Virus record (IMG/VR): IMGVR_UViG_3300009702_000023
Span: 1-64,000 of that record
Direction: 5' to 3' (one strand)
Origin: a virus
DNA: 64,000 nucleotides
Shown here: piece after piece, positions 19,468 through 39,054 of the stretch
Layout of the letters: the number at the start of each line of letters is the position of its first letter
Position numbering within the stretch: the stretch's first letter is position 1
The notes under the pieces: generated by a model
What the model saw: the letters and a program-made list of their open reading frames with translations, nothing else
Told to the model about the DNA's origin: nothing
Databases searched by the model: none
Made by a program: the position numbers and the translations under genes

Positions 19468-20388
19468 ATGCATAATTTAAAACTATACCCATATAAAATG
19501 GCCAGCGAATCTGGAAAAGACTTATCCCGACTACTTGGTATTAAACGGGTAAAACCAAATGGGAATTATGTGCCGAAAAGGGGCCATACTGTTGTAAATT
19601 GGGGAAATAGTCGATTTCCCGATTGGCTTGAACTAGCAAATAGACGAAACGTAACTATCCTAAATGATGTTGGTGCTGTAGGAAATGCTACCAATAAACT
19701 TACCACTTTGAGAATTTTAAATGAAGCAAGGGTAAATATTCCACGGTTTACAGTAGATAAGCAAAGTGCTATGATCTGGTTAGAAGATTGCAATACCGTT
19801 ATAGAACGACACAAATTGACCGGAAATAGCGCAGAAGGCATTCGGGTTGTAAATATAGATGATCCTGATATGCCTAGCGAATTAAATGATGCCCCACTTT
19901 ATACTAAATTTATTCCTAAATCTAATGAATTCCGTGTTCATGTTTTTCGTGGAGAAATTATTGATTACCGCGAAAAAAAGAAACGAAAATTAGAAAATCG
20001 CCCAGAGAATTTTAATAAATATATTTCTTCTCATACTATGGGCTGGGTTTTTTGTAAAAATAATATTAAACATATTGATAGTGTCAAAGAAGAGGCAATT
20101 AAAGCGGTTAATGCTTTGGGCCTTGATTTCGCTGCGGTTGATGTTATTTTTTATGAAGGCACCCCATATGTATTAGAGGCAAATACTGCGCCCGGAATTA
20201 TGGGTACAACTCTAGCAATATATGCTAATACTTTTCGAAATTTTATGGGCCTACCCAGTATTGAAATTATAAATGATAATAATGTAACTTCCGAAGCTGT
20301 CGTCGAGACATTAGACTCCGGTTTAGTTACCTTAACACTCGATTATACTACGGCAAGAAAACTGAAGGCATTACTTGCTGATGTATAG
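19468..20388 (+). CDS. ATP-grasp carboxylate-amine ligase
   Basis: 306 residues. ATP-grasp signatures: KLTTLRILNEARVNIPRF (N-terminal lobe), LYTKFIPKSNEFRVHVF (central lobe with the conserved Lys and Glu), and YVLEANTAPGI near residue 236, the Mg-ATP-binding Glu-x-Asn pattern of RimK-like ligases. Family enzymes join a carboxylate to an amine through an acyl-phosphate. First gene after a strong early promoter with AAGGAG. Related phage gene sets combine this enzyme with amidoligases and class II glutamine amidotransferases, both present here at 27975-30021 and 37810. Substrates unknown. Confidence 0.88.
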   Translation: MHNLKLYPYKMASESGKDLSRLLGIKRVKPNGNYVPKRGHTVVNWGNSRFPDWLELANRRNVTILNDVGAVGNATNKLTTLRILNEARVNIPRFTVDKQSAMIWLEDCNTVIERHKLTGNSAEGIRVVNIDDPDMPSELNDAPLYTKFIPKSNEFRVHVFRGEIIDYREKKKRKLENRPENFNKYISSHTMGWVFCKNNIKHIDSVKEEAIKAVNALGLDFAAVDVIFYEGTPYVLEANTAPGIMGTTLAIYANTFRNFMGLPSIEIINDNNVTSEAVVETLDSGLVTLTLDYTTARKLKALLADV

Positions 20389-20415
20389 ATTAATACTCCT
20401 ATTAGTTGTTTGCTG

Positions 20416-20437
20416 CCCCGGAAAAGGAATTCTGGGG
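20416..20437 (+). other. Hairpin after the ATP-grasp gene
   Basis: CCCCGGAA pairs with TTCTGGGG (one G-U pair) around a 6-base loop, 28 bases after the ATP-grasp stop. No T-run follows, so it is not a standard terminator; it may protect the transcript's 3' end or attenuate. Confidence 0.45.
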
Positions 20438-20471
20438 TAGTAATTTAACTGATATAAAAAGGATTTAAAAA

Positions 20472-20621
20472 ATGATTAGTATAATAATAGCATTATCAAT
20501 AATTACAATAATCTCTTTATTAATTACTCAATTAGTAATGAGTGTAAATGATTTATATGATAAAATATATGAATTAGAATATTATATTAATGATTTGGAG
20601 GCTTTTATATGTGGCGAATGA
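20472..20621 (+). CDS. 49-residue single-span membrane protein
   Basis: Starts after AAGGA. Residues 2-22 are a membrane segment (MISIIIALSIITIISLLI); the rest is acidic and Tyr-rich. Its end overlaps the following lipoprotein gene by 13 bases. The inner-membrane plus lipoprotein pairing resembles spanins in layout but is much too short to be convincing. Confidence 0.6.
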   Translation: MISIIIALSIITIISLLITQLVMSVNDLYDKIYELEYYINDLEAFICGE

Positions 20622-20845
20622 TATTAATTTGTTTATTTTGTATTGGCTGCGGAAGTTTAAATTCAAAAAATACAAGTTATCATATTTGGCAGCTTAAAAA
20701 ATATAATCGGCAAATGACATCTATTGAAAAGGTAACATTTAGTGGGTGCAGTTCAACTGTAATTGATATTAAAAGAGGGCCAATCCACTATATAGTTGTT
20801 ATATGTAAAAATTCAATTAAATTTATTCCGGGAATAGGGCGATAA
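20609..20845 (+). CDS. Small lipoprotein
   Basis: 78 residues. Signal sequence with a lipobox-like CIGC at residues 11-14. The mature part has two further Cys that could form a disulfide and a hydrophobic IVVICKN stretch. GGAGG lies upstream. Likely lodged in the cell envelope. Function unknown; the next gene is coupled by TAATG. Confidence 0.7.
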   Translation: MWRMILICLFCIGCGSLNSKNTSYHIWQLKKYNRQMTSIEKVTFSGCSSTVIDIKRGPIHYIVVICKNSIKFIPGIGR

Positions 20846-20967
20846 TGATTTTATTATCAACAAGTGACTATTTCCACCAAATCGGAAGGATTTCAATACC
20901 CATGGATGGGTTTTTATTTTGGTATATTATAATTGGTATTATATTATTAATAATCATAAGGAGTTAA
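20845..20967 (+). CDS. 40-residue membrane protein
   Basis: ATG overlaps the preceding stop (TAATG). Residues about 22-38 are a strong membrane segment (GFLFWYIIIGIILLIII). The next gene follows after one base with AAGGAG inside this gene's end. Coupling supports reality; role unknown. Confidence 0.55.
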   Translation: MILLSTSDYFHQIGRISIPMDGFLFWYIIIGIILLIIIRS

Positions 20968-20968
20968 T

Positions 20969-21208
20969 ATGGATAATGTTGTATTGTTGGGAAGTTTAGT
21001 TGCAGTTTTTAGCGCAGTTGCTGGATTTTTATTCCGAGGTTTATTTGGGTCAAAAGGAAAATTAAATAAAGAATTAATCAATGCTGTAGCTTCGGGAAGA
21101 GAGGTAATGATTTTAATTGATCGAGAGGGAGTCGCATATAAAAAAGAAAATAATAAACTCAATACTTATCGTATTGTATTAGGTGAAGAAGAAAATGTCA
21201 ATAATTAA
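20969..21208 (+). CDS. Small membrane-anchored protein
   Basis: 79 residues. One membrane span at residues about 5-27 and a soluble C-terminal domain with a basic/acidic mix. AAGGAG six bases upstream. No family recognised. Confidence 0.75.
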   Translation: MDNVVLLGSLVAVFSAVAGFLFRGLFGSKGKLNKELINAVASGREVMILIDREGVAYKKENNKLNTYRIVLGEEENVNN

Positions 21209-21389
21209 TATGGTATGGTTATTCTGTGCAATTTTTAATATAGTGGATTTTGTTTCTTTTTTGTTGACAAATATCTCTAAACATAGTAAAGTAAATTATG
21301 GATGGGCGTTATTTTTTTCAATTTTTGCATTATTATTAGGCCCAGTTTGGACACTTGGTGTCATTTACTATAAAGGAGTAATACAATGA
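21195..21389 (+). CDS. Two-span membrane protein
   Basis: 64 residues from MSIINMVW; an in-frame GTG four codons earlier is possible. Two hydrophobic spans (about residues 4-24 and 38-58). Overlaps genes on both sides (14 bases upstream, ATGA-type downstream). Confidence 0.65.
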   Translation: MSIINMVWLFCAIFNIVDFVSFLLTNISKHSKVNYGWALFFSIFALLLGPVWTLGVIYYKGVIQ

Positions 21390-21565
21390 AAACAATTGAC
21401 AATGTGATAGAAGAAATAATGGCCAATTCTGATAAAAAAGAATTTAAACTTGATATTACGGGATTAAATCCTGTAGATCGGGCAACTATTATTGATGGTT
21501 TGGAATGTGAAGGTTTTTTGGTAGACACATATCACGGTAGTGATTATTTGGAGGTTCATAAATAA
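21386..21565 (+). CDS. 59-residue soluble protein
   Basis: Starts inside the preceding stop, with AAGGAG upstream. Acidic, alpha/beta, no membrane segment or motif recognised. Ends in TAATG with the next gene. Confidence 0.65.
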   Translation: MKTIDNVIEEIMANSDKKEFKLDITGLNPVDRATIIDGLECEGFLVDTYHGSDYLEVHK

Positions 21566-21843
21566 TGGATGGATTTTATACATACCCTAATAGAACAATA
21601 TGTGACGTATTAGAAGAAATGCGAAAATTAAATAAAACTCGAAATTATTCTGCTTTAGCTGGATTAATTGAAGAAATTCAATCTATGGCAAATAAGATGG
21701 AAGCCGCGTTAGGTGATAAAAAAGATGTAAAACTGTGGACTAAAAAACGTGCAAGTCTTAAGGAAGAAATTAAAAAATTAATTAAAATAAAAGAAGGACT
21801 AGATGAAAATAATAATTCTGACAATCGGACTGATGACAATTAG
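21565..21843 (+). CDS. Helical protein, unknown
   Basis: 92 residues, coupled to the gene upstream by TAATG. Charged helices between about residues 15 and 80, with an Asn/Asp-rich end. No recognised family. Confidence 0.7.
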   Translation: MDGFYTYPNRTICDVLEEMRKLNKTRNYSALAGLIEEIQSMANKMEAALGDKKDVKLWTKKRASLKEEIKKLIKIKEGLDENNNSDNRTDDN

Positions 21844-21964
21844 TTTTGCAAGTTTTTATCTTGGGGCTAATCATGGTTATACCATAGGTTATAAAACAGC
21901 AATTGCGAATAAAACTGTTGTAGGAATAAAAAATGGAAAAGTTGAGTGTCATTATATTAAATAG
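21803..21964 (+). CDS. 53-residue exported or membrane protein
   Basis: Begins 41 bases before the end of the preceding gene with GAAGGA upstream. The N-terminal MKIIILTIGLMTISFASFYL is a signal or anchor; the short tail is Gly/Tyr/Lys-rich. The next gene starts inside it in another frame. Confidence 0.6.
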   Translation: MKIIILTIGLMTISFASFYLGANHGYTIGYKTAIANKTVVGIKNGKVECHYIK

Positions 21965-22160
21965 TTTGGTTGTTTTAAATGTGTGTGTTCCACCAAAAAT
22001 TATTAACACAACAAATGTTTGGAATAATTTCGATACAAGACAATTAAAATTTTCATTAACTAGGTGCCCATCATTATATAAGGATGCCCCTTGTCTTAAA
22101 TTATTTTGGAAATATGAAGAAAACAGCTATAGAGCTATATGCGGGAGAAATGAGAAATGA
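21933..22160 (+). CDS. Small secreted Cys protein
   Basis: 75 residues with an N-terminal hydrophobic signal (SVIILNSLVVLNVCVP). The mature part holds three Cys (RCPSLY, APCLKLF, RAICGR), suggesting disulfides. AGGAA precedes the ATG. Like the 20609 lipoprotein it points to an envelope role for this cluster. Confidence 0.65.
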   Translation: MEKLSVIILNSLVVLNVCVPPKIINTTNVWNNFDTRQLKFSLTRCPSLYKDAPCLKLFWKYEENSYRAICGRNEK

Positions 22161-22351
22161 AATTTTTTACTATAAAACGGGGGGAAAATCGGTATGAAGG
22201 AATGTTTATCGCCCCTAATGAAATTGTGGCGCGAGAGATTGCCCGAAAAAATGGGTTTAAAATTGATGATGATACTGTATTCGAAGATGTGTCAGTTGAA
22301 AGAACCGAAGCTGAGAAAAAAAATAGCCCAATTCTAGGGGGAAGTAAATGA
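22157..22351 (+). CDS. Hypothetical phage protein
   Basis: 64 residues, ATGA coupling to its neighbours. Compact alpha/beta sequence with a basic start and acidic end; no motif recognised. Confidence 0.7.
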   Translation: MKFFTIKRGENRYEGMFIAPNEIVAREIARKNGFKIDDDTVFEDVSVERTEAEKKNSPILGGSK

Positions 22352-22656
22352 ATTTATTAAATTTTAAAGCAAAAAATTGCGAATATTGTGGTGCTGTCTT
22401 AAATGGAAATAACCAATTAGAATTAGACAATCATTATACTTCTTGTAAAAAACGAAAAGAAAAAATTGATAAACTTATGAAAAAAAATAAAGATATTTTA
22501 GAAAAATTAGCAGATGGTTTAGATAATACATATGTTCGTCATTTAGAAGATGAATTATTACAATTAAAAGAAAAAATAAAAGAATTAACAAAAGAACGAG
22601 ATGCTGCTCGGCAAATCGCATATGAAGCAAAACACGGAGTATTTGAAAAACCATAA
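22348..22656 (+). CDS. Zinc-finger and coiled-coil protein
   Basis: 102 residues. CEYCG near residue 11 and HYTSCKKR near 29 form a CxxC...HxxxC zinc site, followed by a long coiled coil (about residues 35-90). Preceded by GGGG. Could bind nucleic acid; partner unknown. Confidence 0.7.
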   Translation: MNLLNFKAKNCEYCGAVLNGNNQLELDNHYTSCKKRKEKIDKLMKKNKDILEKLADGLDNTYVRHLEDELLQLKEKIKELTKERDAARQIAYEAKHGVFEKP

Positions 22657-22665
22657 GGAAATGTT

Positions 22666-22998
22666 ATGAATATAAATGAATTAGCAAATAAATGTTATGG
22701 AGATGCAAAATCTTTGGGTTGGTATGATGACAATAAAACTAAATCCGATGTAGAATCGTTAATGCTGACGGTCTCTGAACTATCTGAAGCAGTTGAAGAA
22801 CTTCGTAAACCTGAAACACAAATTGAGTATGAAGGTAAAAATGGTAAACCGGAGGGTTATGGTGTTGAACTTGCTGATGCCATAATTAGATTACTAGATT
22901 TAGCTGCCTTTCGGGGAATTGATATTGGCGGAATAATTGAACGGAAATTGGCTTATAATCTAAAACGCGGCTACCGTCATGGGAATAAAAAATATTAA
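22666..22998 (+). CDS. MazG-like nucleotide pyrophosphohydrolase
   Basis: 110 residues. SELSEAVEELRK and VELADAIIRLLDLA carry the Glu/Asp metal ligands of the all-alpha NTP pyrophosphohydrolase superfamily, in the usual ExxE ... ExxD order. Such enzymes hydrolyse dNTPs or alarmone-type nucleotides. The next phosphoesterase gene overlaps by one base. Confidence 0.85.
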   Translation: MNINELANKCYGDAKSLGWYDDNKTKSDVESLMLTVSELSEAVEELRKPETQIEYEGKNGKPEGYGVELADAIIRLLDLAAFRGIDIGGIIERKLAYNLKRGYRHGNKKY

Positions 22999-23648
22999 TG
23001 GAACTTGTATTTTTAAGTGATACTCATTATTGCCATAAAGAATTTGATGTTGGTCAAGGTGATGTATTAATTCATTCTGGGGATGCGGAAATTAACAGTA
23101 AAGATGCTTGTGTTAGTTTCGCCCAGTGGATGGATCAACAGAAATTTAAATATAAAATATTTGTTCCCGGAAATCATGATAGTTATTTAGCCGATAAAAC
23201 ACAAGAGGCTATTTCAATATTTCATGATTATGGAATTAATGTTTTAATTGATGATGGAATTAAAATTAATGACTATTTATTTTGGGGAACACCGTATGTG
23301 CCACAATTTGGTCGCTGGGATTTTATGAAAAAAGAAAGTGAACTTCTAGCTCACTACAAACAAATCCCACCAGAAGTAGATGTATTAATTACTCATGGCC
23401 CTCCGAAATATATCTTAGATCAGAATCATCGAGGTGATTGGTGTGGAAGTGAATTTTTATCACAATTAGTTATGCAAAAAAAACCAATTGTCCATGCTTT
23501 TGGCCATATACACGATAGTTATGGTTATAAAAGTTTTCATGATATTTTATTTATTAATTCGGCAGTAGCGCCAACATTTGATATGGGACCTAATGAGCCA
23601 ATCAGAGTTATCTTAGAATATAAAAAAGTAGTTGATATTATTTCTTAA
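22998..23648 (+). CDS. Calcineurin-like metallophosphoesterase
   Basis: 216 residues with SDTHYCH, HSGDAE, VPGNHDSY, ITHGPP and FGHIHDSYG in order, the complete two-metal site of the calcineurin-like family. The pattern fits the bacterial and metazoan MPPED-like subgroup. Coupled to the MazG gene, so nucleotide metabolism is a reasonable context. Its end overlaps the convergent virion gene by 11 bases. Confidence 0.88.
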   Translation: MELVFLSDTHYCHKEFDVGQGDVLIHSGDAEINSKDACVSFAQWMDQQKFKYKIFVPGNHDSYLADKTQEAISIFHDYGINVLIDDGIKINDYLFWGTPYVPQFGRWDFMKKESELLAHYKQIPPEVDVLITHGPPKYILDQNHRGDWCGSEFLSQLVMQKKPIVHAFGHIHDSYGYKSFHDILFINSAVAPTFDMGPNEPIRVILEYKKVVDIIS

Positions 23649-24372
23649 GAAGTTTTTTCGGAACTATAACTTTTTTTTGTCCATAACCAAAACGATTTGC
23701 AATTCCAGGAAATTGATCATATAAATTTTGAGTTTCTTCTTGACCAAAGATGTTATTGAGATTAGTTTCTACTTTAGATTCCGGCAATCCTGCTCTATAT
23801 TGATTTATAACATTAGCTTTTATCGGACCTTCCTCTAAACCAGTTTGAATTACTTTACCATAATCTTTCGGGCCTTCTTCTAAGCCCTTTCTAATAACTT
23901 TCCCTAAAGCGGGTTCTTCTTCCAAACCAGTCCTAATAACTTTTCCCAAGGCCGGGGTTTCTTCTAAACCAGTTTGAATTAATTTGCCAAATTTTCCGCC
24001 CTGTTTAATAAATGGGGCGACAGCAGCTAGAGCTTTAACACCTTTACCAACTTCAGCTAATTTACCTAAAGGAGTTGGATCAAATACATCGGCACTTGTG
24101 GCAATGGCAGTTTTAATATATGGATTTTCTAAACCAGTTCGTTCTGCTATATCATAACCTGTGGGGGCTTCACTCGAAGGTCTCGTAAGTTGATGAGCAA
24201 ATGCTCGACCTGCGGCTAAAGGATCACTAGGGTTAAAGTCTTGTGCCGCATAAATGCCGCTACGAGATGCCGCCCCCATTCGATCAAGATAATCTAGGAT
24301 TTTATCTCCTACCCCTTGATTTTGGGATAATTGTTGTAGGGCTTTTTTCTTAGCATCTTTAGGATCAGCCAT
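23638..24372 (-). CDS. Virion-associated protein with internal repeats
   Basis: 244 residues. Residues about 130-200 consist of five or so degenerate repeats of the form GKVIxTGLEExPAL. The N-terminal part is helical and Ala/Gly-rich; the C-terminus is basic. It sits last in a three-gene minus-strand operon downstream of late promoter copy 5, so it is probably a structural or packaged protein. Confidence 0.7.
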   Translation of the reverse strand: MADPKDAKKKALQQLSQNQGVGDKILDYLDRMGAASRSGIYAAQDFNPSDPLAAGRAFAHQLTRPSSEAPTGYDIAERTGLENPYIKTAIATSADVFDPTPLGKLAEVGKGVKALAAVAPFIKQGGKFGKLIQTGLEETPALGKVIRTGLEEEPALGKVIRKGLEEGPKDYGKVIQTGLEEGPIKANVINQYRAGLPESKVETNLNNIFGQEETQNLYDQFPGIANRFGYGQKKVIVPKKLLKK

Positions 24373-24557
24373 TATTTTGCGCCTTTCATCTTTTTTCTTA
24401 ATTTAGCAAATCTTTTAGATTTTTTTTCTGGCAGACTTTTCGGAGATTGACCTTTGACATACTCTGCTGCTTTTTTTCTTGATAGGCCGGGGGCTTTAAT
24501 ACTTCCGTGGGCCACTCCCTGCATAAAACGAAATTGGGCTTTGGATTTAGCTGGCAT
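24372..24557 (-). CDS. DUF3008-like basic protein
   Basis: 61 residues starting MPAKSKAQFRFMQGVAHG, the characteristic opening of small DUF3008-type phage and bacterial proteins. Very rich in Lys and Arg, so DNA or acidic-partner binding is possible. Coupled by TAATG upstream and by a one-base overlap downstream. Confidence 0.75.
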   Translation of the reverse strand: MPAKSKAQFRFMQGVAHGSIKAPGLSRKKAAEYVKGQSPKSLPEKKSKRFAKLRKKMKGAK

Positions 24558-24727
24558 TATTTCTTTTTACCTTTGGCTGCTATTTTTTGGAATTTCTTTT
24601 TTCCATATTTTTTACGACCAATGGAAGCGGCAAGAGCTTCGGGGTGTTCTATGCCTTTTTGGCGTGATAATTGTTTTTTCAAATTAGAAAATCTTTTTCC
24701 GGAACCAAGTTTGGGTTTACGCGACAT
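24557..24727 (-). CDS. 56-residue basic protein
   Basis: Starts MSRKPKLGSGKRF after GGAGGAATTGT. Extremely basic, ending KIAAKGKKK, with an EALAASIGRKKYG motif reminiscent of the next gene's composition. First gene after late promoter copy 5, so probably a late, packaged or DNA-binding protein. Confidence 0.7.
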   Translation of the reverse strand: MSRKPKLGSGKRFSNLKKQLSRQKGIEHPEALAASIGRKKYGKKKFQKIAAKGKKK

Positions 24728-24744
24728 AATACAATTCCTCCATT

Positions 24745-24760
24745 CATAAATATTTGTTAA
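24745..24760 (-). promoter_or_regulatory. Putative late promoter element, copy 5
   Basis: Exact TTAACAAATATTTATG on the minus strand, followed by AATGGAGGAATT. Its last G is 17 bases before the ATG of the basic protein gene and 4 bases before GGAGG. Confidence 0.7.
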
Positions 24761-24781
24761 TATATATAAAGAAACTATATT

Positions 24782-25216
24782 TTAAAATGTTTGTTTTTTT
24801 ACTCGGCCAAATAATTCGTCATTATAATAATCTCGATGGCGCTCATATTCAGAACCATTGATGTGATAAACCTCCATAATTGACGCTGGTCCGGTATGAT
24901 TACGATTTAGGTCACAATGGCCCAATTCATGAAATATTAATGTCTGTTTATCATTATCAGTAGTATTAAACCAGAATTCGGGATCAATTTGAATATATCT
25001 CTCGCCATTATCATAAATAGTACATAGACCTATAGTATGGCCCGGTAGTGTACTGAATAGCATAGAAATCTGTTTATTAATATATCCATGCTTTAATTTT
25101 TGATAATTAACTATGTATTTATTAAATGCCGGATCAATATTTGTATTATTTATTGAAGTAAATCCGGCGGTACAACCAATTAATATAAAAAATAATATAT
25201 TTAGGATTTTTTTCAT
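24782..25216 (-). CDS. Secreted zinc metalloprotease lipoprotein
   Basis: 144 residues. N-terminal signal with lipobox LIGC (Cys15). HELGHCDLNRNH at residues 96-107 gives the HExxH zinc site plus a third histidine, and a downstream SIM resembles the Met-turn of zincins; the pattern is close to matrixin-like small metallopeptidases. Transcribed alone from its own sigma70-like promoter, between late and early blocks, like a moron gene. Likely acts in the periplasm or outer membrane. Confidence 0.8.
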   Translation of the reverse strand: MKKILNILFFILIGCTAGFTSINNTNIDPAFNKYIVNYQKLKHGYINKQISMLFSTLPGHTIGLCTIYDNGERYIQIDPEFWFNTTDNDKQTLIFHELGHCDLNRNHTGPASIMEVYHINGSEYERHRDYYNDELFGRVKKQTF

Positions 25217-25235
25217 TTTAGCCCCTTCTATTAAA

Positions 25236-25264
25236 AATGTACCACAATATTTTTATATTGTCAA
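25236..25264 (-). promoter_or_regulatory. Sigma70-like promoter for the zinc protease
   Basis: On the minus strand: TTGACA at 25259-25264, 17-base spacer, TACATT at 25236-25241. It is divergent from the plus promoter 10 bases away. Confidence 0.75.
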
Positions 25265-25273
25265 GTATTTTTC

Positions 25274-25302
25274 TTGACAGATTATTTTATATGTGTTAAT
25301 GT
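25274..25302 (+). promoter_or_regulatory. Sigma70-like promoter
   Basis: TTGACA at 25274-25279, 17-base spacer, TAATGT at 25297-25302. Serves the two small genes that follow. Confidence 0.7.
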
Positions 25303-25324
25303 TAATAACATAAAAGGAGATATT

Positions 25325-25501
25325 ATGCTAACAGTTTATATATTATGTTCCTTTCTATCTAGTGATATGGTCACATTAAATAATGTCAACCTTGTTGCCA
25401 AAGAAGATTCAACCTATAAAATAGTTACCCCCGAAAAGGTGTATTATTTTCCAATAAACTCCTGCGCAATAAGTTTTAAGAGGAAATATGAAAAAAGGTG
25501 A
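25325..25501 (+). CDS. 58-residue protein with possible signal
   Basis: ATG at 25325 follows AAAGGAG; an earlier start would lie inside the promoter. The N-terminus (MLTVYILCSFLSS) is weakly hydrophobic. Overlaps the next gene by 14 bases. Function unknown. Confidence 0.65.
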   Translation: MLTVYILCSFLSSDMVTLNNVNLVAKEDSTYKIVTPEKVYYFPINSCAISFKRKYEKR

Positions 25502-25796
25502 TAAAGTAAGACATACCGTCAGTGGAAAAACTGGAATTATTATTAAAGTGGAGGCTAACCCATATATTATTATGGGCTCCCCACAATCTAGCTTATATAC
25601 TGTCGAATTTCAGGATAAATCAACTTTAGTCTGTTCTGCCGGGGACATATGGCCAGAAGATAATGGGGTGCTCCCGAAATCCGGAGATAATACACCCAAA
25701 GCCGGGGCTAATACAATTAAGAAAAAAACATGCAGTTGCGGGGTAAGCTCAGCCAGAGCCGGGGGCAGACATAGCGATTGGTGCGATTTATTTTAA
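25488..25796 (+). CDS. Small protein with C-terminal Cys motif
   Basis: 102 residues. The N-terminal 60 resemble a small SH3/KOW-like beta barrel (GDKVRHTVSGKTGIIIKV). The C-terminus has CSCG and HSDWCDLF, a putative zinc-binding tail found on various phage proteins. GAGG upstream. Confidence 0.7.
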   Translation: MKKGDKVRHTVSGKTGIIIKVEANPYIIMGSPQSSLYTVEFQDKSTLVCSAGDIWPEDNGVLPKSGDNTPKAGANTIKKKTCSCGVSSARAGGRHSDWCDLF

Positions 25797-25840
25797 CGGA
25801 GCCAACCACGTTTTTCGATTTAGCGATCACGCTTTATGGC

Positions 25841-25868
25841 ACTTAATACATGATTAATGTGTTTTTTT
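25841..25868 (+). terminator. Terminator-like hairpin
   Basis: Near 25840-25868: CAC-TTAAT pairs with ATTAA-T-GTG around ACATG, followed by seven T. It ends the short plus unit at 25325-25796. Confidence 0.6.
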
Positions 25869-25899
25869 AGGATATTTTTTTCATTTTTCTTTAAACATA

Positions 25900-27106: not shown

Positions 27107-27457
27107 ATGAAAATAATACTTGCGCTTAATACAGATCATCCAAGCGAAGAGGCTATAATTAAGTCACTAGACTTACCATATCAAAAACTAATTGGTTGTT
27201 ACAAGGGTCAATGTGAAGATAGCTATATGGTTGAATACAAAAATCTATGTGATTTATATAAAATTGTGGCTTTGGCTCAAAAACATAACCAAGAATCAAT
27301 CCTAAGTATTGGTGATGATCTTAGTTGTATCCTGAAATACATCAAATTGACTCAGGATGATGTTTCATTGGGAACATGGACTCAAGTACCCAAAGCTGAA
27401 GCATTCAACTGTGACGCTTGGAGCTTGATTGACGGTCAATATTATATTTGTAAATAA
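27107..27457 (+). CDS. Hypothetical protein, possibly truncated by a stop
   Basis: 116 residues after ACCGGGAG. Mixed alpha/beta with several Cys. Directly after the TAA the same frame stays open for 38 more codons (27458-27571) with coding-like residues (HKLWIEFHESNEAKCL). The stop may therefore be a recent nonsense change shortening a protein of about 155 residues. No family recognised. Confidence 0.75.
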   Translation: MKIILALNTDHPSEEAIIKSLDLPYQKLIGCYKGQCEDSYMVEYKNLCDLYKIVALAQKHNQESILSIGDDLSCILKYIKLTQDDVSLGTWTQVPKAEAFNCDAWSLIDGQYYICK

Positions 27458-27978: not shown

Positions 27979-29015
27979 AAACGGAGCTTAAGTTAAATAA
28001 AAACATAAAATTGAGTAAAACCCAATTGCATTATTACAATAAATTGTCGAGTAAAGACAAACAAAAATATCTATTGTCAAAATTGGGAGTGAAATTTGGT
28101 GTTCCTATGAAGGTTGATAAACTTCATAATTATAAAATTGATAAATTATGTCAAAAAGGGAGAAATAGCATATTGCGTCAATTTCGGGAGATAACTAATT
28201 GTTCCAGTTGTGCGGAGCACAAACCAATAAATGGACTTAAAGGTTCATTCTGGGTGGGAGTGGAAATTGAATGCAATATACCTGATTATATTGGGGAATG
28301 CACTGAATGTGGTGGAACTAGTGAGGTAACATGTTATGATTGTGGCGGTAATGGTTGTGAAGAATGTGGTGGTTATGGTGAAATTAATTGTCTCGAATGT
28401 GATAGCGGGAGCATGGGTTTTAATTATTTAAGAGACAAAATTAAACAAGCCGGGATTAGACGAGCTTCAGTGCGTCGAGATGCGTCTCTATGCTCAGTTT
28501 GTGGTGGGGTGGAGATTACCCTTCTCTTTAATGCTGCGCGTAGCTATGAGCCTCTCAGGCGCTTGTGCGACCTTTTGGGTGACCTAGATGCTGAAATTGA
28601 TTCTGATTGCGGTTTACATGTTCATTTAGATATGAAAGATAGGACAAAAAGACAAGTTATGTATATGAGTAAAAAAATAGAAAAATACATTATTCCTCTG
28701 TCTCTTATGGTCCCTGCGTCAAGACGAGATAATAGATATTGTAGATTAAAAGCCGGAGATATTGATAAACATAATGATAGATATAACGCAATTAATACTG
28801 ACTCGTGGAGAAAACATAAAACAATTGAGATTAGACTGCATTCCGGGAGCACTAATTTTAAGAAAATTAAGAATTGGATTGAATTATTGCGAAAAATTGT
28901 TAATAAACCCGGTCCTAAGGTTAAATTAAACGAAACTAATGAAATGATCCGACATTTGGGCATTAAATACCCATTGGCAAGATATATTAAACAGCGGGAG
29001 AAAAAACATGTGTAA
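27975..29015 (+). CDS. Amidoligase (COOH-NH2 ligase) with zinc-finger insert
   Basis: 346 residues, GTG start with GGAGGT. The core matches the phage/bacterial Amidoligase_2 family of the glutamine-synthetase-like fold: VGVEIE at residues 94-99, DCGLHVHLD near 211-219, and RKHKTIEIRLHSGSTN near 278-293. Inserted after the first strand are four CxxC pairs (109-142: CTEC, CYDC, CEEC, CLEC, three followed by GG), a DnaJ-like double zinc module, plus CSVC at 173. It probably forms an amide between an ATP-activated carboxylate and an amine. Overlaps the glutamine amidotransferase gene by 8 bases. Confidence 0.88.
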   Translation: MKTELKLNKNIKLSKTQLHYYNKLSSKDKQKYLLSKLGVKFGVPMKVDKLHNYKIDKLCQKGRNSILRQFREITNCSSCAEHKPINGLKGSFWVGVEIECNIPDYIGECTECGGTSEVTCYDCGGNGCEECGGYGEINCLECDSGSMGFNYLRDKIKQAGIRRASVRRDASLCSVCGGVEITLLFNAARSYEPLRRLCDLLGDLDAEIDSDCGLHVHLDMKDRTKRQVMYMSKKIEKYIIPLSLMVPASRRDNRYCRLKAGDIDKHNDRYNAINTDSWRKHKTIEIRLHSGSTNFKKIKNWIELLRKIVNKPGPKVKLNETNEMIRHLGIKYPLARYIKQREKKHV

Positions 29016-31286: not shown

Positions 31287-31610
31287 ATGAAAATTTGTAA
31301 TGGTAATTTAACCATAAATAAAGACAATGTTAATGATTTTAAAAACCTTGAAGTTGTAATAGGACGTATAAAATTTGAAAATAAAGTTAAATTTAATGCA
31401 CCTAAATTAAAAATTGTTGGCTCTTGGATTTTTATGAATGAAGGTATGGAGTTTAATGCGCCAAAATTACAAATTATTATGGGAGCTATTAAGATGGTTA
31501 ATAATGCCAAGTTTAATGCACCGAAATTAGAAATAGTCTGTGACTATGTTGGTTTATATAATGGCGCTAAATTAATAGCCCCAAAATTAAAAATAAAGGC
31601 AGGTAAATAA
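31287..31610 (+). CDS. APKL-repeat protein (short paralogue)
   Basis: 107 residues. After an N-terminal INKDNVNDF segment come three to four units of about 23 residues of the form KFNAPKLxIVG, a leucine-rich-like beta solenoid pattern. The N-terminus closely matches that of the 36081 protein (MKI..G.L.INKDNVNDF), so the two are paralogues; this copy lacks the long C-terminal domain. Role unknown, perhaps binding. Confidence 0.75.
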   Translation: MKICNGNLTINKDNVNDFKNLEVVIGRIKFENKVKFNAPKLKIVGSWIFMNEGMEFNAPKLQIIMGAIKMVNNAKFNAPKLEIVCDYVGLYNGAKLIAPKLKIKAGK

Positions 31611-32178: not shown

Positions 32179-33249
32179 ATGAAAGGATATAAAGCATTTA
32201 ATAAAGATTTAACTTGTCGAAAGTTTCAGTTTGAAATTGGCAAAACTTATGAGCATTCGGGAGAATTAAGTTTATGTAACTCGGGTTTTCATTTTTGCAC
32301 CAAATTGGCAGATTGTTTTAGTTATTATATTTTTAGTGATAAACCTATTATTTGCGAAGTTGAAATATTGGGTAAAGTATTAACAGATAGTCAACGAGAC
32401 TCTAAAGCCTGTACTGATAAAATAAAAATTATTAGAAAATTATCATGGGATGAAGTTTTAAATTTAAGCAATTCGGGCTATAATAATTCGGGCTATAATA
32501 ATTCGGGCAATTATAATTCGGGCAATTATAATTCGGGCGATTATAATTCTGGTCATTATAATTCGGGCTATCGTAATTCGGGTCATTATAATTCGGGCAA
32601 TCGTAATTCGGGCAATTATAATTCGGGCGATTATAATTCTGGTCATTATAATTCGGGCTATCGTAATTCGGGCAATTATAATTCGGGCGATTATAATTCG
32701 GGCGATTATAATTCGGGCTATCGTAATTCGGGCAATTATAATTCGGGCTATCGTAATTCGGGCGATTATAATTCGGGCGATTATAATTCGGGCGATTATA
32801 ATTCGGGCTATCGTAATTCGGGCAATTATAATTCGGGCGATTATAATTCGGGCTATCGTAATTCGGGCAATTATAATTCGGGCAATTATAATTCGGGCAA
32901 TTATAATTCGGGCAATTGTAATTCGGGTTTTTTTAACACTAACAATCCTAAACTTAGATTATTTAATAAAGAAACAAATTATGAATCTAGTAATGAGATA
33001 TATAATAAATTACAAAAATTACAAAAATATAGTAAACCCATTTTAATATGGGTTTCAGAAAATAAAATGACTGATCAAGAAAAAAAAGACAATCCTAAAT
33101 ATGAAACAACTAAAGGATATTTAAAATATACTGGCAAACAAAAATGGGATAAATTAAGTAAAGAGGATGAGGATTGGCTTACATCATTGCCCGAATTTGA
33201 CTCTGATATATTTTTTGAATTAACAGGACTAAAACTGGAGAAAAAATAA
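32179..33249 (+). CDS. NSGxx pentapeptide-repeat protein with DUF7666-like head
   Basis: 356 residues. Residues 1-95 resemble DUF7666 (KAFNKDLTCRKFQFEIGKTY, then CNSGFHFC and EVEILGKV). Residues 98-252 are 31 units of N-S-G-x-x, matching the Asn/Gly pentapeptide repeats of PPE-MPTR-type proteins, which can form a beta solenoid. The C-terminal domain (from about 255) has NKMTDQEKKDNP and LPEFDSDIFFELTG and is shared with the 52036 protein. Function unknown. Confidence 0.8.
   Translation: MKGYKAFNKDLTCRKFQFEIGKTYEHSGELSLCNSGFHFCTKLADCFSYYIFSDKPIICEVEILGKVLTDSQRDSKACTDKIKIIRKLSWDEVLNLSNSGYNNSGYNNSGNYNSGNYNSGDYNSGHYNSGYRNSGHYNSGNRNSGNYNSGDYNSGHYNSGYRNSGNYNSGDYNSGDYNSGYRNSGNYNSGYRNSGDYNSGDYNSGDYNSGYRNSGNYNSGDYNSGYRNSGNYNSGNYNSGNYNSGNCNSGFFNTNNPKLRLFNKETNYESSNEIYNKLQKLQKYSKPILIWVSENKMTDQEKKDNPKYETTKGYLKYTGKQKWDKLSKEDEDWLTSLPEFDSDIFFELTGLKLEKK
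32470..32934 (+). repeat. 31 tandem 15-base repeats (coding)
   Basis: Units of AATTCGGGC plus six variable bases, e.g. AATTCGGGCAATTAT, in perfect 15-base register. Encodes N-S-G-x-x. Near-identical units recur at 52054-52338. Confidence 0.95.
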
Positions 33250-33395
33250 TGACATGGATTATGTTAGCACTTTGTTTACATGGTAGTCCCATGATTGTCA
33301 ATTTCGGGAGTGATAAAAATAAATGTGAGGTTGTTGCTAACGAATTTATAAGGTCAGGCATGAAATGTGATTTTAAATGTTTGAGAATAAAATAA
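33249..33395 (+). CDS. 48-residue hypothetical protein
   Basis: ATG overlaps the upstream stop (TAATG). Starts MTWIMLALCLHGSPM, weakly hydrophobic, and has three Cys in CDFKCLR and NKCEVV. The pattern may be a short exported protein. Function unknown. Confidence 0.55.
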   Translation: MTWIMLALCLHGSPMIVNFGSDKNKCEVVANEFIRSGMKCDFKCLRIK

Positions 33396-33411
33396 AAGAG
33401 GAGATTAAATA

Positions 33412-34686
33412 ATGATTGAAAAATTAACAGATAAACAAGAAAAATTAGTTTCGGTTTATAGAGATAAATGGCTGGAAATCGGGAGATCAGTTAAACCTAT
33501 AGATAAAGAAAAAACCACAAAGTCAATTAATTGGCTATATAAATTTGGGAAACGTAGTGAAACCCCTTATATGTGGTTTTGTGATAGCCCATTACAAATG
33601 CAATTAATAATTAATTTATTGCGAGATGAAGATTTTAAAAAAGTATTGGTGGAAAATCTTAGGTCTAATCTAGGGTCTAATCTTAGGTCTAATCTTAGGT
33701 TTAATCTAGGGTCTAATTTAGAGTCTAATCTTAGGTCTAATCTAGGGTCTAATCTAGGGTCTAATCTTAGGTCTAATCTAGGGTCTAATCTTAGGTCTAA
33801 TCTAGGGTCTAATTTAGAGTCTAATCTTTGGTCTAATCTAGGGTCTAATCTTTGGTCTAATCTAGGGTCTAATCTTTGGTCTAATCTTAGGTCTAATCTT
33901 AGGTCTAATCTTAGGTCTAATCTAGGGTCTAATCTTAGGTCTAATCTAGGGTCTAATCTTAGGTCTAATCTTTGGTCTAATCTAGGGTCTAATCTTTGGT
34001 CTAATCTAGGGTCTAATTTAGAGTCTAATCTTTGGTCTAATCTTAGGTCTAAAAATTTAAAATTTGAACATTTTTTTAGTCCCAATATTGAATCGTATTG
34101 GGTCGGATATTATGATTATATTTTACATGAATTATTTCCGGAAAAAATAAATGAATTTGAAGAATTTAGTAAAAATTGTATAAATTTTTATAAAAATACA
34201 TATTTAATTGTCCCATTTGAAAATATTTGTTTTATTTCAGAAAGGCCAATAGAATATAATTTAAATGAAGAAGGTAGATTACATAGTTTAGATAAACCAT
34301 CAATGAAATTTAAAGATGGATATGAATTTTATAGTTTAGATGGTATAACTATAGATAAAACAATTATTGATGCTTGTAATGAAAAAACGGAGCCCAATAA
34401 AATATTAAGTTTAAAAAATGTAGAGCAAAGATTAGTTGGAATTAAATATTTTGGAATTGAGAATATGTTAGAACAATTGGGGGGTAAAATTATAGATGAA
34501 TATAAATATTATAAATTATTAGAGGTTGAAATCGAGGGTAGCAAAGAAAAACTATTGCAGATGGAAAATCAAAGTGGTAATCAAATACATTACGAATTTG
34601 TAACTCCCGATATTACTACTTGCAAAAAAGCATTATCTTGGAGAATAGGATTAGATATATATAATGAACCAAAAGCAATCTCATAA
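33412..34686 (+). CDS. DUF6745-like protein with SNLx repeat insert
   Basis: 424 residues. The N-terminal 80 and C-terminal 210 residues match the DUF6745 pattern: YWVGYYDYI, then IVPFENICFISERP, NEEGRLHS, KDGYEFYSLDGI and a C-terminal PDITTCKKALSWRIGL. Between them are 33 units of N-L-x-S (x = R, G, E, W or F). Family members often carry short tandem repeats of V-x-D-Q type at this point; here the repeat sequence is different. Function of the family unknown. Confidence 0.8.
   Translation: MIEKLTDKQEKLVSVYRDKWLEIGRSVKPIDKEKTTKSINWLYKFGKRSETPYMWFCDSPLQMQLIINLLRDEDFKKVLVENLRSNLGSNLRSNLRFNLGSNLESNLRSNLGSNLGSNLRSNLGSNLRSNLGSNLESNLWSNLGSNLWSNLGSNLWSNLRSNLRSNLRSNLGSNLRSNLGSNLRSNLWSNLGSNLWSNLGSNLESNLWSNLRSKNLKFEHFFSPNIESYWVGYYDYILHELFPEKINEFEEFSKNCINFYKNTYLIVPFENICFISERPIEYNLNEEGRLHSLDKPSMKFKDGYEFYSLDGITIDKTIIDACNEKTEPNKILSLKNVEQRLVGIKYFGIENMLEQLGGKIIDEYKYYKLLEVEIEGSKEKLLQMENQSGNQIHYEFVTPDITTCKKALSWRIGLDIYNEPKAIS
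33655..34050 (+). repeat. 33 tandem 12-base repeats (coding)
   Basis: Units such as AATCTTAGGTCT and AATCTAGGGTCT in a 12-base register, encoding N-L-x-S. All units are the same length, so copy-number change keeps the frame. Confidence 0.95.
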
Positions 34687-34697
34687 AGGAGAAAATT

Positions 34698-35072
34698 ATG
34701 AAACCATTTAATGAAAGTAAAAAACCGCGAGTTCCAGAAATGAAAAATGCTGGAGATTATGTGCTACACGGAGATGTAGTAATTGAAAAAGTTTCCGAAG
34801 TATCAACGGAATTTTGTGATTTAAAAAAATCTAAAGATTCGACTTTGGCATACGGCGAAGTAACTGGCCATATTCATCAACTAAGCGGGGGTGAATTTGA
34901 TTTGCGTATTGATAAAAAGAACCCAGCAAATAGGCATTTAAAGGTTGTAACGCCCGTTCTATTAAGACATCAAGAACATTTGCCAATTTTATTGCCGCCG
35001 GGAGAATATATTACCAGAATTCAAAAAGAATATGATCCATTTGAAAAAAAGATTAGAGAGGTTCAAGACTAA
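34698..35072 (+). CDS. Conserved phage protein beside DUF6745
   Basis: 124 residues. LAYGEVTGHIHQL, VTPVLLRHQEHLPILLPPG and a C-terminal RIQKEYDP...REVQD form a compact beta-barrel-like domain with three His in conserved-looking positions. It follows the DUF6745 gene by 11 bases after AAAGGAG, so a joint role is plausible. Not assigned. Confidence 0.7.
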   Translation: MKPFNESKKPRVPEMKNAGDYVLHGDVVIEKVSEVSTEFCDLKKSKDSTLAYGEVTGHIHQLSGGEFDLRIDKKNPANRHLKVVTPVLLRHQEHLPILLPPGEYITRIQKEYDPFEKKIREVQD

Positions 35073-35416
35073 TGGATTATAAAAAAGTGACACCGGAGAC
35101 ATTTGCTATATATTTAAAAATTGCCAATCAACGAGATAAATTATATCGCCATAAAACGTGTTATATAGCTTATGATTGTAACTCCGGTTTCGCTATCACT
35201 AATAGTGGTCTATTGTGCCATGTATTTAGTTTAAAGCCGGGAGCGGGGCGACTGGCAGTAAAAAAAGCAATTAAACTTGGTGCAATTAGATTATCATGCT
35301 ATAATAAACAACAAGAGATGTATTATGGAACATTTGGGTTCTATACTACCTTTAGATCAAATAATAAATATTGGATGTGTAGAAAAAATATAGGAGGTGC
35401 CGCATGCATAGAATAA
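35072..35416 (+). CDS. Possible GNAT-like protein
   Basis: 114 residues. The order of a central GxxAVKKAIKLGA helix and a following IRLSCYN strand with YYGTFGF resembles the C-terminal half of GNAT acetyltransferases, but the acetyl-CoA loop is not clear. Overlaps the upstream stop; the next gene starts inside its end. Confidence 0.65.
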   Translation: MDYKKVTPETFAIYLKIANQRDKLYRHKTCYIAYDCNSGFAITNSGLLCHVFSLKPGAGRLAVKKAIKLGAIRLSCYNKQQEMYYGTFGFYTTFRSNNKYWMCRKNIGGAACIE

Positions 35417-35766
35417 ATAAACCAAAAGTAATTTTAATCCCAGTTTCAAGACTACAGAAACTAACATTTATTAGTAAATTAGTTAAACTTAAATCCGAAC
35501 ACTGGTCGGGGGAATTGGCGTTGGCCGCATATAATAATAGTGATGAAATTAAACCAATGCTCCAGGAATTGGGGGCTACAGACTACTTCCTAATTGATAA
35601 AGAAAGATTCATTAGTTATGTTAACTTGCATGATCCCGATCTTATGAAAAAAATGAAAAAGGGTTTAGCCGATAAAAGGATTAAATTTGACACAGCGCAC
35701 AATGCTAAAAAAGAGGATTTTATGATTTATGATGTAACTTATGATACATATTGGACATTAGTGTGA
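35404..35766 (+). CDS. Hypothetical protein
   Basis: 120 residues, alpha/beta, starting MHRINKPKVILIPVSRL after AGGAGGTG. Overlaps the preceding gene by 13 bases. No motif recognised. Confidence 0.7.
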   Translation: MHRINKPKVILIPVSRLQKLTFISKLVKLKSEHWSGELALAAYNNSDEIKPMLQELGATDYFLIDKERFISYVNLHDPDLMKKMKKGLADKRIKFDTAHNAKKEDFMIYDVTYDTYWTLV

Positions 35767-35769
35767 TAT

Positions 35770-36024
35770 ATGAAATATTCAATTGAACTTATAAAATTAT
35801 CAAAATCGGGAAGGGCGGTTAGTCGAAAAGAAAAATTCTTTTATAATATTAAAGATGTAAAAGAATATTATAATCAAGCTAAAAAAGAATTTAATACATT
35901 AATTAATGTTAAATTATATGATAGTACACAAAGCCCTAAATGGACAAAAAAGTGCGATTATATTATTAGTTTACAACAAGATAAAGGTACTTTTTATATT
36001 AGTGAACAAAAAGCGAAAGGATAG
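35770..36024 (+). CDS. Hypothetical protein
   Basis: 84 residues, Lys/Tyr-rich alpha/beta. Three bases after the previous stop. No family recognised. An 18-codon frame at 36028-36084 follows and overlaps the next start (ATGA), perhaps a coupling leader. Confidence 0.65.
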   Translation: MKYSIELIKLSKSGRAVSRKEKFFYNIKDVKEYYNQAKKEFNTLINVKLYDSTQSPKWTKKCDYIISLQQDKGTFYISEQKAKG

Positions 36025-36080
36025 AAGATGAATTGGTATTATTTTCAAACAGATACCAGTTTGATAAAAAGGAGTATTTT

Positions 36081-37106
36081 ATGAAAATTCATAAAGGCGA
36101 TTTGTTAATTAATAAAGATAATGTTAATGATTTTAAAGATCTCGAAATTGTAACTGGTTGTGTTTCTATACATGAAAGAGTAAAGTTTATCGCCCCGAAA
36201 TTAAAAACAATTGGTAAATATACCTCGATATCTTATGGGGCAGAATTTACTGCTCCGAAATTAAAAACTATTGGCGGTGATGTATTTATTCAATCGGGGG
36301 GAGAATTTAATGCTCCGAAATTAGAAATTATTAGACAAGAAGTTTATATTAATCCGCAAGGAAAATTTGTAGCCCCCGAATTAGAAATAATTGGGAAGTA
36401 CTTATCACTATATAATGGGGCAGAGTTTAATGTTCCGAGGTTAGAGGCTATCGGAGGCAGAGTCGCCTTATCTAAGGGGGCAAAGCTTCGGGCGGAGAGG
36501 TTGGAGGTTGTCGGAGGTTCTGTCTACGTTTATAGGGGGGCGGAGGCTCGGGCGCCGAGGCTGGGGGTCGTCGGGCATTATGTGTGCTTGTTGGGAGGGG
36601 GTAAGTTGGAGGCACCGGGGTTGGAGATAGACCTATCTTTGGAAGGTCCACTGATCGCAGAGATGAACCTGCGGTTATTATTGTGGCGAAAGGGCTTCGT
36701 TTTAATAGATGGCATCTTATCTAAATTATTAAGTGAGAAAACTGTTGGCGATGTTAATGTAATGAAAGTATTAAACATTGGAGATACTAAACCGTCATAT
36801 ATTGTGGAAAGGAATAATGCATTTGCTCATGGCAATACTATTAAAAAGGCAATAGAGGATATTCGCTACAAAATCGGAGACAGGAATGTATCAGAATTCG
36901 GGGGGTGGAAAGACAATCTTGATCAAGAGATTAGTTTGGATGTCGCTATTACAGGTTATCGAGTTATCACTGGGGCTTGTGAAGCGGGAGTGAGGGGGTT
37001 TATTAATTCAATTAAAGTGCCGAAGAAATTAACGCCTAATGTAATACTTAAATTAACCGAAGGTCAATATGGTAATGACACATTTCGGGAGTTTTTAAAC
37101 AATTAA
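36081..37106 (+). CDS. APKL-repeat (leucine-rich-like) protein
   Basis: 341 residues from the ATG after AAAAAGGAG. Residues about 20-185 form seven or more units of roughly 20-24 residues (GAEFxAPKLKTIGG), a beta-solenoid pattern. The C-terminal 150 residues are alpha/beta with VERNNAFAHGNTIKKAIEDIRYKI. Bases 36441-36690 are abruptly GC-rich and shift the repeats to Arg/Gly/Val codons, unlike the rest of the gene. Paralogue of the 31287 gene. Confidence 0.8.
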   Translation: MKIHKGDLLINKDNVNDFKDLEIVTGCVSIHERVKFIAPKLKTIGKYTSISYGAEFTAPKLKTIGGDVFIQSGGEFNAPKLEIIRQEVYINPQGKFVAPELEIIGKYLSLYNGAEFNVPRLEAIGGRVALSKGAKLRAERLEVVGGSVYVYRGAEARAPRLGVVGHYVCLLGGGKLEAPGLEIDLSLEGPLIAEMNLRLLLWRKGFVLIDGILSKLLSEKTVGDVNVMKVLNIGDTKPSYIVERNNAFAHGNTIKKAIEDIRYKIGDRNVSEFGGWKDNLDQEISLDVAITGYRVITGACEAGVRGFINSIKVPKKLTPNVILKLTEGQYGNDTFREFLNN

Positions 37107-37122
37107 TTTGGGAGAAAAAACA

Positions 37123-37809
37123 ATGTTTTTAGGTCAAGAATTTAATGACGGTGATATTGTAAGAGTGAGATTGAAAACCGAAGAACAATTGGATATAGTA
37201 ATGATAAATATGGATGACTATGATAAATTTTCATTTTATACCGCAGAGTTTTGGGGCTTTTTAGGAACAGAGATTGATTGTATTTATAATCAAGAATCGG
37301 GTTTAAAATTTCATGGTGTTGTAATTCCTCAATTTATATGTGACGAAATTATTTCTGGCTATATTAATTGGGCGGAAGTTGAAGATGGGGCGCACTTAAA
37401 TGTTATGTTATTAAGTCCGTATGAAATAGGATATAAAGATCTATATAATATTAATAGTAATGGCAATTTAACTTCTACGGATAACAAAACTATATATAAC
37501 ATTCCAATAGACAATTTTTATCAAAAAAATGTTGAAATCATTTTTAATAAAGAATCAAATAGTTTTTGTTTACGCGGTTATAATCAAAAGCTCCCTTTAG
37601 ACTTGATTAAAAAAATTAATAATCCGGTAAAATCTACACCGAAAACGCCAAATAAATATAAAAAATTAAGATTACCTATTAGTAGAACAGCTTTAATATT
37701 TAAAGAAGATGGTAAAATGCAATTAGGCACTTTAAGTATTAAGAAAAAAGATGCTTTGTTTTTACTTCGCAAATTGGCTATTGAATATAATTATTTAGAG
37801 GAAGAATAA
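37123..37809 (+). CDS. Hypothetical protein
   Basis: 228 residues from MFLGQEFNDG, chosen for the GGGAGAAAAAAC site. An N-terminal beta-rich domain and a basic C-terminal segment (KYKKLRLPISRT). Abuts the second amidoligase gene. Not recognised. Confidence 0.7.
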   Translation: MFLGQEFNDGDIVRVRLKTEEQLDIVMINMDDYDKFSFYTAEFWGFLGTEIDCIYNQESGLKFHGVVIPQFICDEIISGYINWAEVEDGAHLNVMLLSPYEIGYKDLYNINSNGNLTSTDNKTIYNIPIDNFYQKNVEIIFNKESNSFCLRGYNQKLPLDLIKKINNPVKSTPKTPNKYKKLRLPISRTALIFKEDGKMQLGTLSIKKKDALFLLRKLAIEYNYLEEE

Positions 37810-39054
37810 ATGCAATTTAGTAAAAAATATCCACTAGAAATTAGTTTTATTGAGCATAGTAATCCGAATATTTCAGCTATTCATATGGATGCTATTAAAA
37901 AAATTAGAAAATGTCGAAAGACATTAAAAAATGATTATTCTAAAATGTCGGATAATTTAAAAGAACAATTGATTGAAGAAATTCAGAAATATAGAGGAAG
38001 AATACATTTTCATAAAGCCAAACGGCGTAAAGCTAAATTAAAATATAAAGATGTTGAAATGATTGTTCCGGTAAATTCAATGGGAATGATTCTCCCTAGT
38101 AAATTTCGGGGGTATAAAAAAGAAATTATTAATCAATTACAAAAAAATAGAGAAGATAGAAAAAAACAAAATGAAAAAGTGACATTTATTGGTAGAATAG
38201 ATTATTCCTTATACGGTGGGGTTCATAAAAAACAGAAAACGATTTTAAAACTTTTTAGAGAAATTGCCAAGAATAGAGTTAATAGTCCAAGAAATCCTAA
38301 AGCCGAAGAAAATCATGTGGGACTTGAAATAGAATTTTTTTCAAATTATGATAGAGATACAGTTTGTAATTTTTTTATTGATGCAAAATTATCACAGTTT
38401 GTTAGAATAATGACAGATGTTTCAATTAAACCTTCTAGCGAAAAACCTGTTGGTTTAGAATTATGTCTGATTGCCCCCGAAAGTCGTTTAGAAGAGATTG
38501 TTCGGCGAGCTTGTGAGGTATTAACTGATCTTGATGCCAAAACTAATGAAAGCTGCGGCCTACACGTTCATCTCGATTGTCGAAATCGCAGTCAAGTAAC
38601 ACTTTTTTATAATATGGTTAAATGTCAAGATTTATTATTTAAATTGGTTGATCCTTCAAGAACGGGTAATAAGTTTTGTTTAAAGCAAAGAAGTCCTATT
38701 TGGGAAAAAGCAAATACAGGCCATTATGCTGCTATTAATAAAGGTTCATATTTAAAACATAAAACTATTGAAATCAGAATGCATCACGGAACAACAAATT
38801 ATAATGAAATTATCTTATGGGTTAAATTATTAATAAAAATTGCCAATTATAATAAACATTTTAAGGATATTAACTCAGTTGATAGAATTTCGAAGATATT
38901 AAAATTAGATAATAATTTAAAACAGAAATTAAATACAAAAATGAGTATAAATAAAAAGAATCCAGAGCAAGGGAGAGTTACTGCTACTGAATTGATGTTT
39001 GATACTGCCCGCGATTTTTATTATACGAGACAGTGGTTGGACTGGGGGATGTAA
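37810..39054 (+). CDS. Second amidoligase (COOH-NH2 ligase)
   Basis: 414 residues. A basic helical N-terminus of about 160 residues precedes the amidoligase core: HVGLEIEFF near residue 170, ESCGLHVHLDCRNRS near 247, KHKTIEIRMHHGTTN near 315. These match the 27975 protein motif for motif, but no zinc insert is present; the gap between the first two motifs is much shorter. Probably the same chemistry on a different substrate. It directly follows the 37123 gene. Confidence 0.85.
   Translation: MQFSKKYPLEISFIEHSNPNISAIHMDAIKKIRKCRKTLKNDYSKMSDNLKEQLIEEIQKYRGRIHFHKAKRRKAKLKYKDVEMIVPVNSMGMILPSKFRGYKKEIINQLQKNREDRKKQNEKVTFIGRIDYSLYGGVHKKQKTILKLFREIAKNRVNSPRNPKAEENHVGLEIEFFSNYDRDTVCNFFIDAKLSQFVRIMTDVSIKPSSEKPVGLELCLIAPESRLEEIVRRACEVLTDLDAKTNESCGLHVHLDCRNRSQVTLFYNMVKCQDLLFKLVDPSRTGNKFCLKQRSPIWEKANTGHYAAINKGSYLKHKTIEIRMHHGTTNYNEIILWVKLLIKIANYNKHFKDINSVDRISKILKLDNNLKQKLNTKMSINKKNPEQGRVTATELMFDTARDFYYTRQWLDWGM

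Follow-up and report, generated by a model that had tools for sequence, protein, structure and literature searches.

A scattered set of predicted amide-forming enzymes in a phage record, centred on an amidoligase-glutamine amidotransferase gene pair

The stretch of DNA analysed here (the window) comprises bases 1-64000 of the IMG/VR virus record IMGVR_UViG_3300009702_000023, which totals 73,835 bases. It encodes an ATP-grasp ligase (P0001), two amidoligases (P0002 and P0004) and a class II glutamine amidotransferase (GATase, P0003). We propose, with a probability of about 0.6, that the phage encodes in these proteins a set of enzymes for glutamine-dependent amide formation. It would be a scattered variant of the ATP-grasp/amidoligase/GATase cassettes of other phages, built on a GATase-coupled clade of amidoligases, the CGxHVH clade. 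Judged by how the genes recur, the firm unit of the set is P0002 together with P0003, since elsewhere this pair recurs independently of the other cassette genes. That the amidoligase and its GATase form a compact, separable unit is a more useful result than the scattered set.

An overlapping amidoligase-amidotransferase gene pair

The original prediction had placed four enzymes of these kinds in the window. All four open reading frames (ORFs) were confirmed exactly, and their family matches (phrog_2599, PF12224 twice and GATase_6) lay far above chance. P0002 (27975-29015, plus strand, GTG start) is an Amidoligase_2 protein (PF12224, E=5e-15) of the CGxHVH clade, and its motifs GxExE, D-S, CGLHVH, R and TIEIR are kept throughout that clade. 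P0003 (29008-30021, plus strand) is a class II (Ntn, N-terminal nucleophile) GATase (GATase_6, E=9.2e-9) in which the M1-C2 nucleophile and H88/R90/T93, H113-N114-G115 and D131, the glutamine-binding residues among them, are invariant and the D-S motif is present. The two genes overlap by 8 bases (29008-29015) and thus form a pair as defined here, that is, a CGxHVH amidoligase followed by a nearby class II GATase on the same strand.

A scan with an alignment of CGxHVH proteins gave 80 viral loci. Among the loci fetched, 49 non-identical ones, the window included, showed the amidoligase followed by the class II GATase. An identifiable Met-Cys start of the GATase was found in 48 of them; the two genes overlapped in 8 loci, lay within 30 bases of each other in 27 and within 100 bases in 11. 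The HNG and H-x-R-x-x-T/S motifs were present in the GATases of all 49. When ORFs around about 45 pair loci were clustered, only the amidoligase and the GATase recurred across unrelated contigs, and the other recurrent clusters traced to groups of related phages. The pair was also detected in contigs of bacterial metagenome-assembled genomes (MAGs) from Bacteroidales, Omnitrophica, Sulfurovaceae and others. Alignment queries were needed to detect these relatives: scans of IMG/VR with P0003 or P0004 as single proteins returned no matches. Megablast of 24 kb against phages gave none, and a sequence search of the PDB yielded no relatives of P0002, P0003 or P0004.

The fold of the amidoligases was examined in AlphaFold models that drew on the window and on IMG/VR relatives. 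Both models have high-confidence catalytic cores, and the best PDB folds were glutamine synthetases for P0002 (Foldseek E=5.3e-4, probability 1.0) as well as for P0004 (E=3.4e-5, probability 1.0). Structure prediction, the check put forward with the original prediction, therefore did not reveal proteins devoid of a ligase site. Identity between glutamine synthetases and the models was 10-14% and the overall TM-score low (0.3-0.4), these modest scores being due to the poorly predicted N-terminal regions and insert. Taken with the complete class II motif set of P0003, the fold suggests a reaction in which P0003 would free ammonia from glutamine, and P0002, perhaps in a complex with it, would phosphorylate a carboxylate with ATP and capture the ammonia as an amide; alternatively, P0002 could take a small amine in place of ammonia. 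Overall this would be the reaction of glutamine synthetase made dependent on glutamine; glutamine synthetase itself uses free ammonia and has no GATase.

P0002 also contains a DnaJ-like CxxCxG insert (residues 109-142; 28299-28400, plus strand) with four CxxC motifs (CTEC, CYDC, CEEC and CLEC). The insert, modelled with low confidence, sits directly after the GVEIE strand, the first strand of the active site. In the closest relative, the amidoligase of locus L095, the equivalent insert matches PF00684 (DnaJ_CXXCXGXG) weakly, with an E-value of 8.7e-4 that is below the cut-off. Cys-rich inserts in the amidoligases of L098, L106 and L109 occupy another loop. The zinc-finger-like insert of P0002, lying beside the first active-site strand, is a candidate substrate-binding element.

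A second amidoligase and a distant ATP-grasp ligase

The second Amidoligase_2 protein, P0004 (37810-39054, plus strand; PF12224, E=7.4e-12), belongs to the GATase-coupled clade as well. A hidden Markov model of the CGxHVH type, in whose building both window proteins were included, scored them at 470 and 446 bits, compared with 38 and 56 bits for the cassette model. In a quick IQ-TREE phylogeny of 77 rows, with support given as SH-aLRT (SH-like approximate likelihood ratio test), P0002 and P0004 both fell in a 32-row clade (SH-aLRT 97), mostly GATase-coupled, apart from the cassette amidoligases, 14 of whose 15 rows formed a group of their own (support 96). Several members of the CGxHVH clade that are labelled as solo are cut off at a contig end. 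The prediction that two different amidoligases share one phage was borne out, since P0002 and P0004 are about 30% identical and are not sisters. They must therefore have diverged long ago. The sister of P0002 is the L095 protein (SH-aLRT 99), and P0004 is nested among L118 and further members (supports 87-98); on these grounds a recent duplication was rejected. Within the proposed set, P0004 would act as another ligase from the CGxHVH clade, either relying, like P0002, on P0003 or taking an amine. Several ligases sharing one GATase is precedented, because in a stretch of a viral contig (L118, 9422-17913) and in one of a bacterial MAG contig (L180, 1530-7396) a single class II GATase gene accompanies three Amidoligase_2 genes.

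P0001 (19468-20388, plus strand) is a RimK-like ATP-grasp ligase with a strong match to phrog_2599 (E=4.8e-76), while its Pfam matches to ATP-grasp_3 and RimK barely exceed the cut-offs. ATP-grasps resembling it, with identities up to about 40%, occur in 309 phage records, and its residues N76 and K77, E154/R156/H158, D225, E237 and N239 are invariant and common to the cassette ATP-grasps. Where such ATP-grasp loci had at least 7 kb of upstream sequence, an amidoligase was present in 48/48, a GATase in 46/48 and a COOH-NH2_lig ligase in 43/48, and a gamma-glutamyl cyclotransferase (GGCT) was detected in 14/48; this family of ATP-grasps is thus associated with amidoligases. P0001 clustered with the ATP-grasps of L016, L020, L033 and L059, all four of which carry CGxHVH-type amidoligases. 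This grouping (SH-aLRT 90) is below the support mark of 95; it suggests shared ancestry with the ATP-grasps of other CGxHVH-amidoligase phages and thus makes a single ancestral set, now scattered, plausible. Also in favour of this reading, the contig L016/L103 unites a COOH-NH2 ligase, a CGxHVH amidoligase, a GATase and an ATP-grasp. Within such a joint pathway the probable part of P0001 would be to attach an amino acid, the acceptor being the same or a related one; we propose this role less firmly than those of P0002 and P0003.

Several observations weigh against a single set. The 7,560 bases that separate P0001 from the nearest amidoligase are the largest such distance in 86 loci (median 526; next largest 4,123), and in 84 of these the ATP-grasp lies at most about 2.7 kb from an amidoligase, a contiguity that this phage lacks. 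No ATP-grasp was seen in 31 of 34 pair-bearing records and 32 of the 34 hold one amidoligase of the CGxHVH type, although many of these records are fragments. No GATase adjoins P0004. Across about 45 other contigs the pair is accompanied by no conserved substrate gene, and the literature searched reports no activity for any member. These counts do not sustain the original view of the four genes as one obligate system; the shared neighbourhood that it implied holds for P0002-P0003, with its 49 loci, and is consistent with the P0001 grouping, but does not extend to an ATP-grasp beside most pairs. The genes could instead have been acquired independently, in two or three events, and serve unrelated purposes: an amidotransferase made of P0002-P0003, a stand-alone P0004 and a stand-alone ATP-grasp, co-resident in a region of accessory genes. 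The distant relationship of P0002 and P0004 and the arrangement of the genes in separate runs 8 kb apart fit this explanation together with the counts just given. We nevertheless regard it as unlikely, because the ATP-grasp family of P0001 hardly ever occurs without an amidoligase nearby and P0001 itself groups with members from CGxHVH loci, and because P0004 falls inside the GATase-coupled clade and L118 and L180 set a precedent for sharing.

Known phage cassettes and possible targets

The enzyme set is of a known kind, because several phage groups carry such cassettes. The cassette is contiguous and consists of COOH-NH2_lig, a small phi32_85-like protein, Amidoligase_2, a class II GATase, ATP-grasp and GGCT; UFV-P2 is one of the phages that carry it (PMC3890496). 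A profile check located the cassette, usually adjoining a primase-helicase gene, in phiEco32, LUZ24, CW02, phiM6, 275E43-1, Slicky01 and 7-11, and PA11 is also among the phages with an ATP-grasp/amidoligase/class II GATase cassette. LUZ24-like phages hold both COOH-NH2_lig and Amidoligase_2, so that a phage with two ligases was already known (PMC3890496). The predicted resemblance to phage amidoligase sets was thus confirmed at the level of families: the phrog_2599 ATP-grasp, Amidoligase_2 and the class II GATase with Cys2 of the phiEco32/LUZ24/PA11 cassette are all present here. In contrast to that cassette, where the median ATP-grasp gap is 0.5 kb, the gap in this phage is 7.6 kb; two CGxHVH amidoligases take the place of one cassette-clade amidoligase (TSxHVH/CSTHVH type) plus COOH-NH2_lig, and the set does not adjoin a primase-helicase gene.

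Lenient profiles gave no match to COOH-NH2_lig (PF14395), to the phi32_85-like gene or to GGCT (AIG2/GGACT) in the 73.8 kb record, GGCT being a weak criterion given its detection rate in ATP-grasp loci. These absences hold for the 73.8 kb record only, because it has no terminal repeats and may be incomplete, and the window is a part of it. The missing genes and the unusual spacing would be expected if the four genes were diverged, inactive remnants of a scattered cassette that had lost its COOH-NH2 ligase and GGCT. We consider this very improbable, since the four frames are intact and the catalytic residues conserved; moreover, 4 of 6 ATP-grasp loci of the CGxHVH type also lack COOH-NH2_lig, and GGCT goes undetected in most ATP-grasp loci.

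Two further systems resemble the pair more than the full cassette. The OM43 phages MEP401 and MEP402 and their relatives carry an amidoligase (PF12224) and a GATase (PF13522), described as auxiliary metabolic genes in passages of PMC10580990. By description, they share the two families with P0002-P0003, and unlike for this phage, those passages mention neither an ATP-grasp nor a second amidoligase. The closest pair is that of L095 (IMG/VR 3300000970_000009), which is 36% identical over P0002 residues 4-340 and 40% in the GATase, and which shares with this phage the DnaJ-like insert, a PDDEXK protein and SAM-lyase-family genes. In contrast to the phage studied here, L095 has no ATP-grasp and a single amidoligase in 78.9 kb.

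As regards the target, bacteria have class II GATases, AsnB/LtsA for example, that amidate wall peptides, which counts in favour of an envelope target. The phiEco32-type module has been proposed to modify host peptidoglycan (PMC6256558), the idea of cell-wall modification against superinfection is repeated in the passages of PMC10580990 that deal with these genes, and both articles, in those parts, cite Iyer et al. 2009. Following these proposals by analogy, a host envelope or peptidoglycan peptide is the most likely target, which would be amidated or extended to block superinfection or to time lysis. This assignment, which is compatible with a glutamine-dependent amide-forming set, is tentative, as the literature searched yields no direct evidence for it in any phage.

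Covalent modification of a protein of the phage or the host, such as one of the virion or of the translation machinery, is less probable; the zinc-finger insert of P0002 would then be the docking site for the protein, and the repeat-rich proteins encoded nearby might be substrates. Consistent with it, P0001 is RimK-like, the Dop/Pup-ligase family has the glutamine synthetase fold and a Dop chain is among the fold matches of P0002, and the CGxHVH clade has Cys-rich inserts in two different loops. On the other hand, the Dop match is weak (E=0.025), a small peptide conserved as a partner did not turn up, and homologues of the repeat proteins are absent near other copies of the pair. The suggestion that interleaved repeat-rich or secreted proteins serve as substrates accordingly found no backing: in some 45 further contigs none of them has a homologue close to the pair, and the repeat-rich proteins were rejected as conserved substrates.

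Neighbouring genes and significance of the pair

Four genes of the region encode repeat proteins. The product of 32179-33249 (plus strand) combines DUF7666 with Pentapeptide_2 repeats (YNSGNYNSG), and that of 33412-34686 (plus strand) has SNLGSNLR/W repeats followed by DUF6745. The products of 31287-31610 and 36033-37106 (both plus strand) share the repeat pattern FNAPKLKxIGG and are apparent paralogues of one repeat family, for which Pfam offers no good match.

A SAM-lyase-family (S-adenosylmethionine lyase) gene (27107-27457, plus strand; PF23780, E=5.9e-14) precedes P0002 by 0.5 kb. Of 50 other amidoligase records, 3 contain PF23780; it abuts an amidoligase in L118 and flanks the pair on both sides in L095. 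In G004 an apparent closeness depends on circularity, and circularity was not found. Three records are too few for us to claim the gene as a component of the system; possibly it is an anti-restriction gene that shares the neighbourhood, or it is linked to the pair.

Elsewhere in the window, the gene at 41945-42223 (plus strand) encodes a small protein that resembles c-type cytochromes and has the motifs CTPCH and MPPG; its matches to PccH (1.1e-4) and Cytochrome_CBB3 (7.5e-4) are both below curated cut-offs, and tblastn of 50,697 phage records gave no match to it. The terminase large subunit (15870-18518, minus strand, 882 amino acids) shows, from about residue 440, PHROG matches to ribonucleotide reductase, helicase and DNA polymerase, and judging from these matches it probably carries an intein. 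The nearest relative of the portal protein (13770-15836, minus strand) is encoded by a phage of Silvanigrella aquatica (CP017838) at 27% identity, which hints at an unusual host group.

The literature searched reports no substrate for the amide-forming sets of hundreds of sequenced phages. A broader view of the pair, which we offer as speculative, is that a CGxHVH amidoligase plus GATase represents a distinct and widespread phage machine for glutamine-dependent amidation. It would stand apart from the phiEco32-type cassette, and zinc-finger-like, Cys-rich inserts at different loops of its ligase would pick different macromolecular targets; this phage would then hold two ligases of different specificity and one shared GATase. 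The two-gene unit of ligase and GATase is a minimal system for expression and assay, and the loci with and without ATP-grasp, with and without the zinc insert, and with one or several ligases provide a natural contrast set for finding the target.

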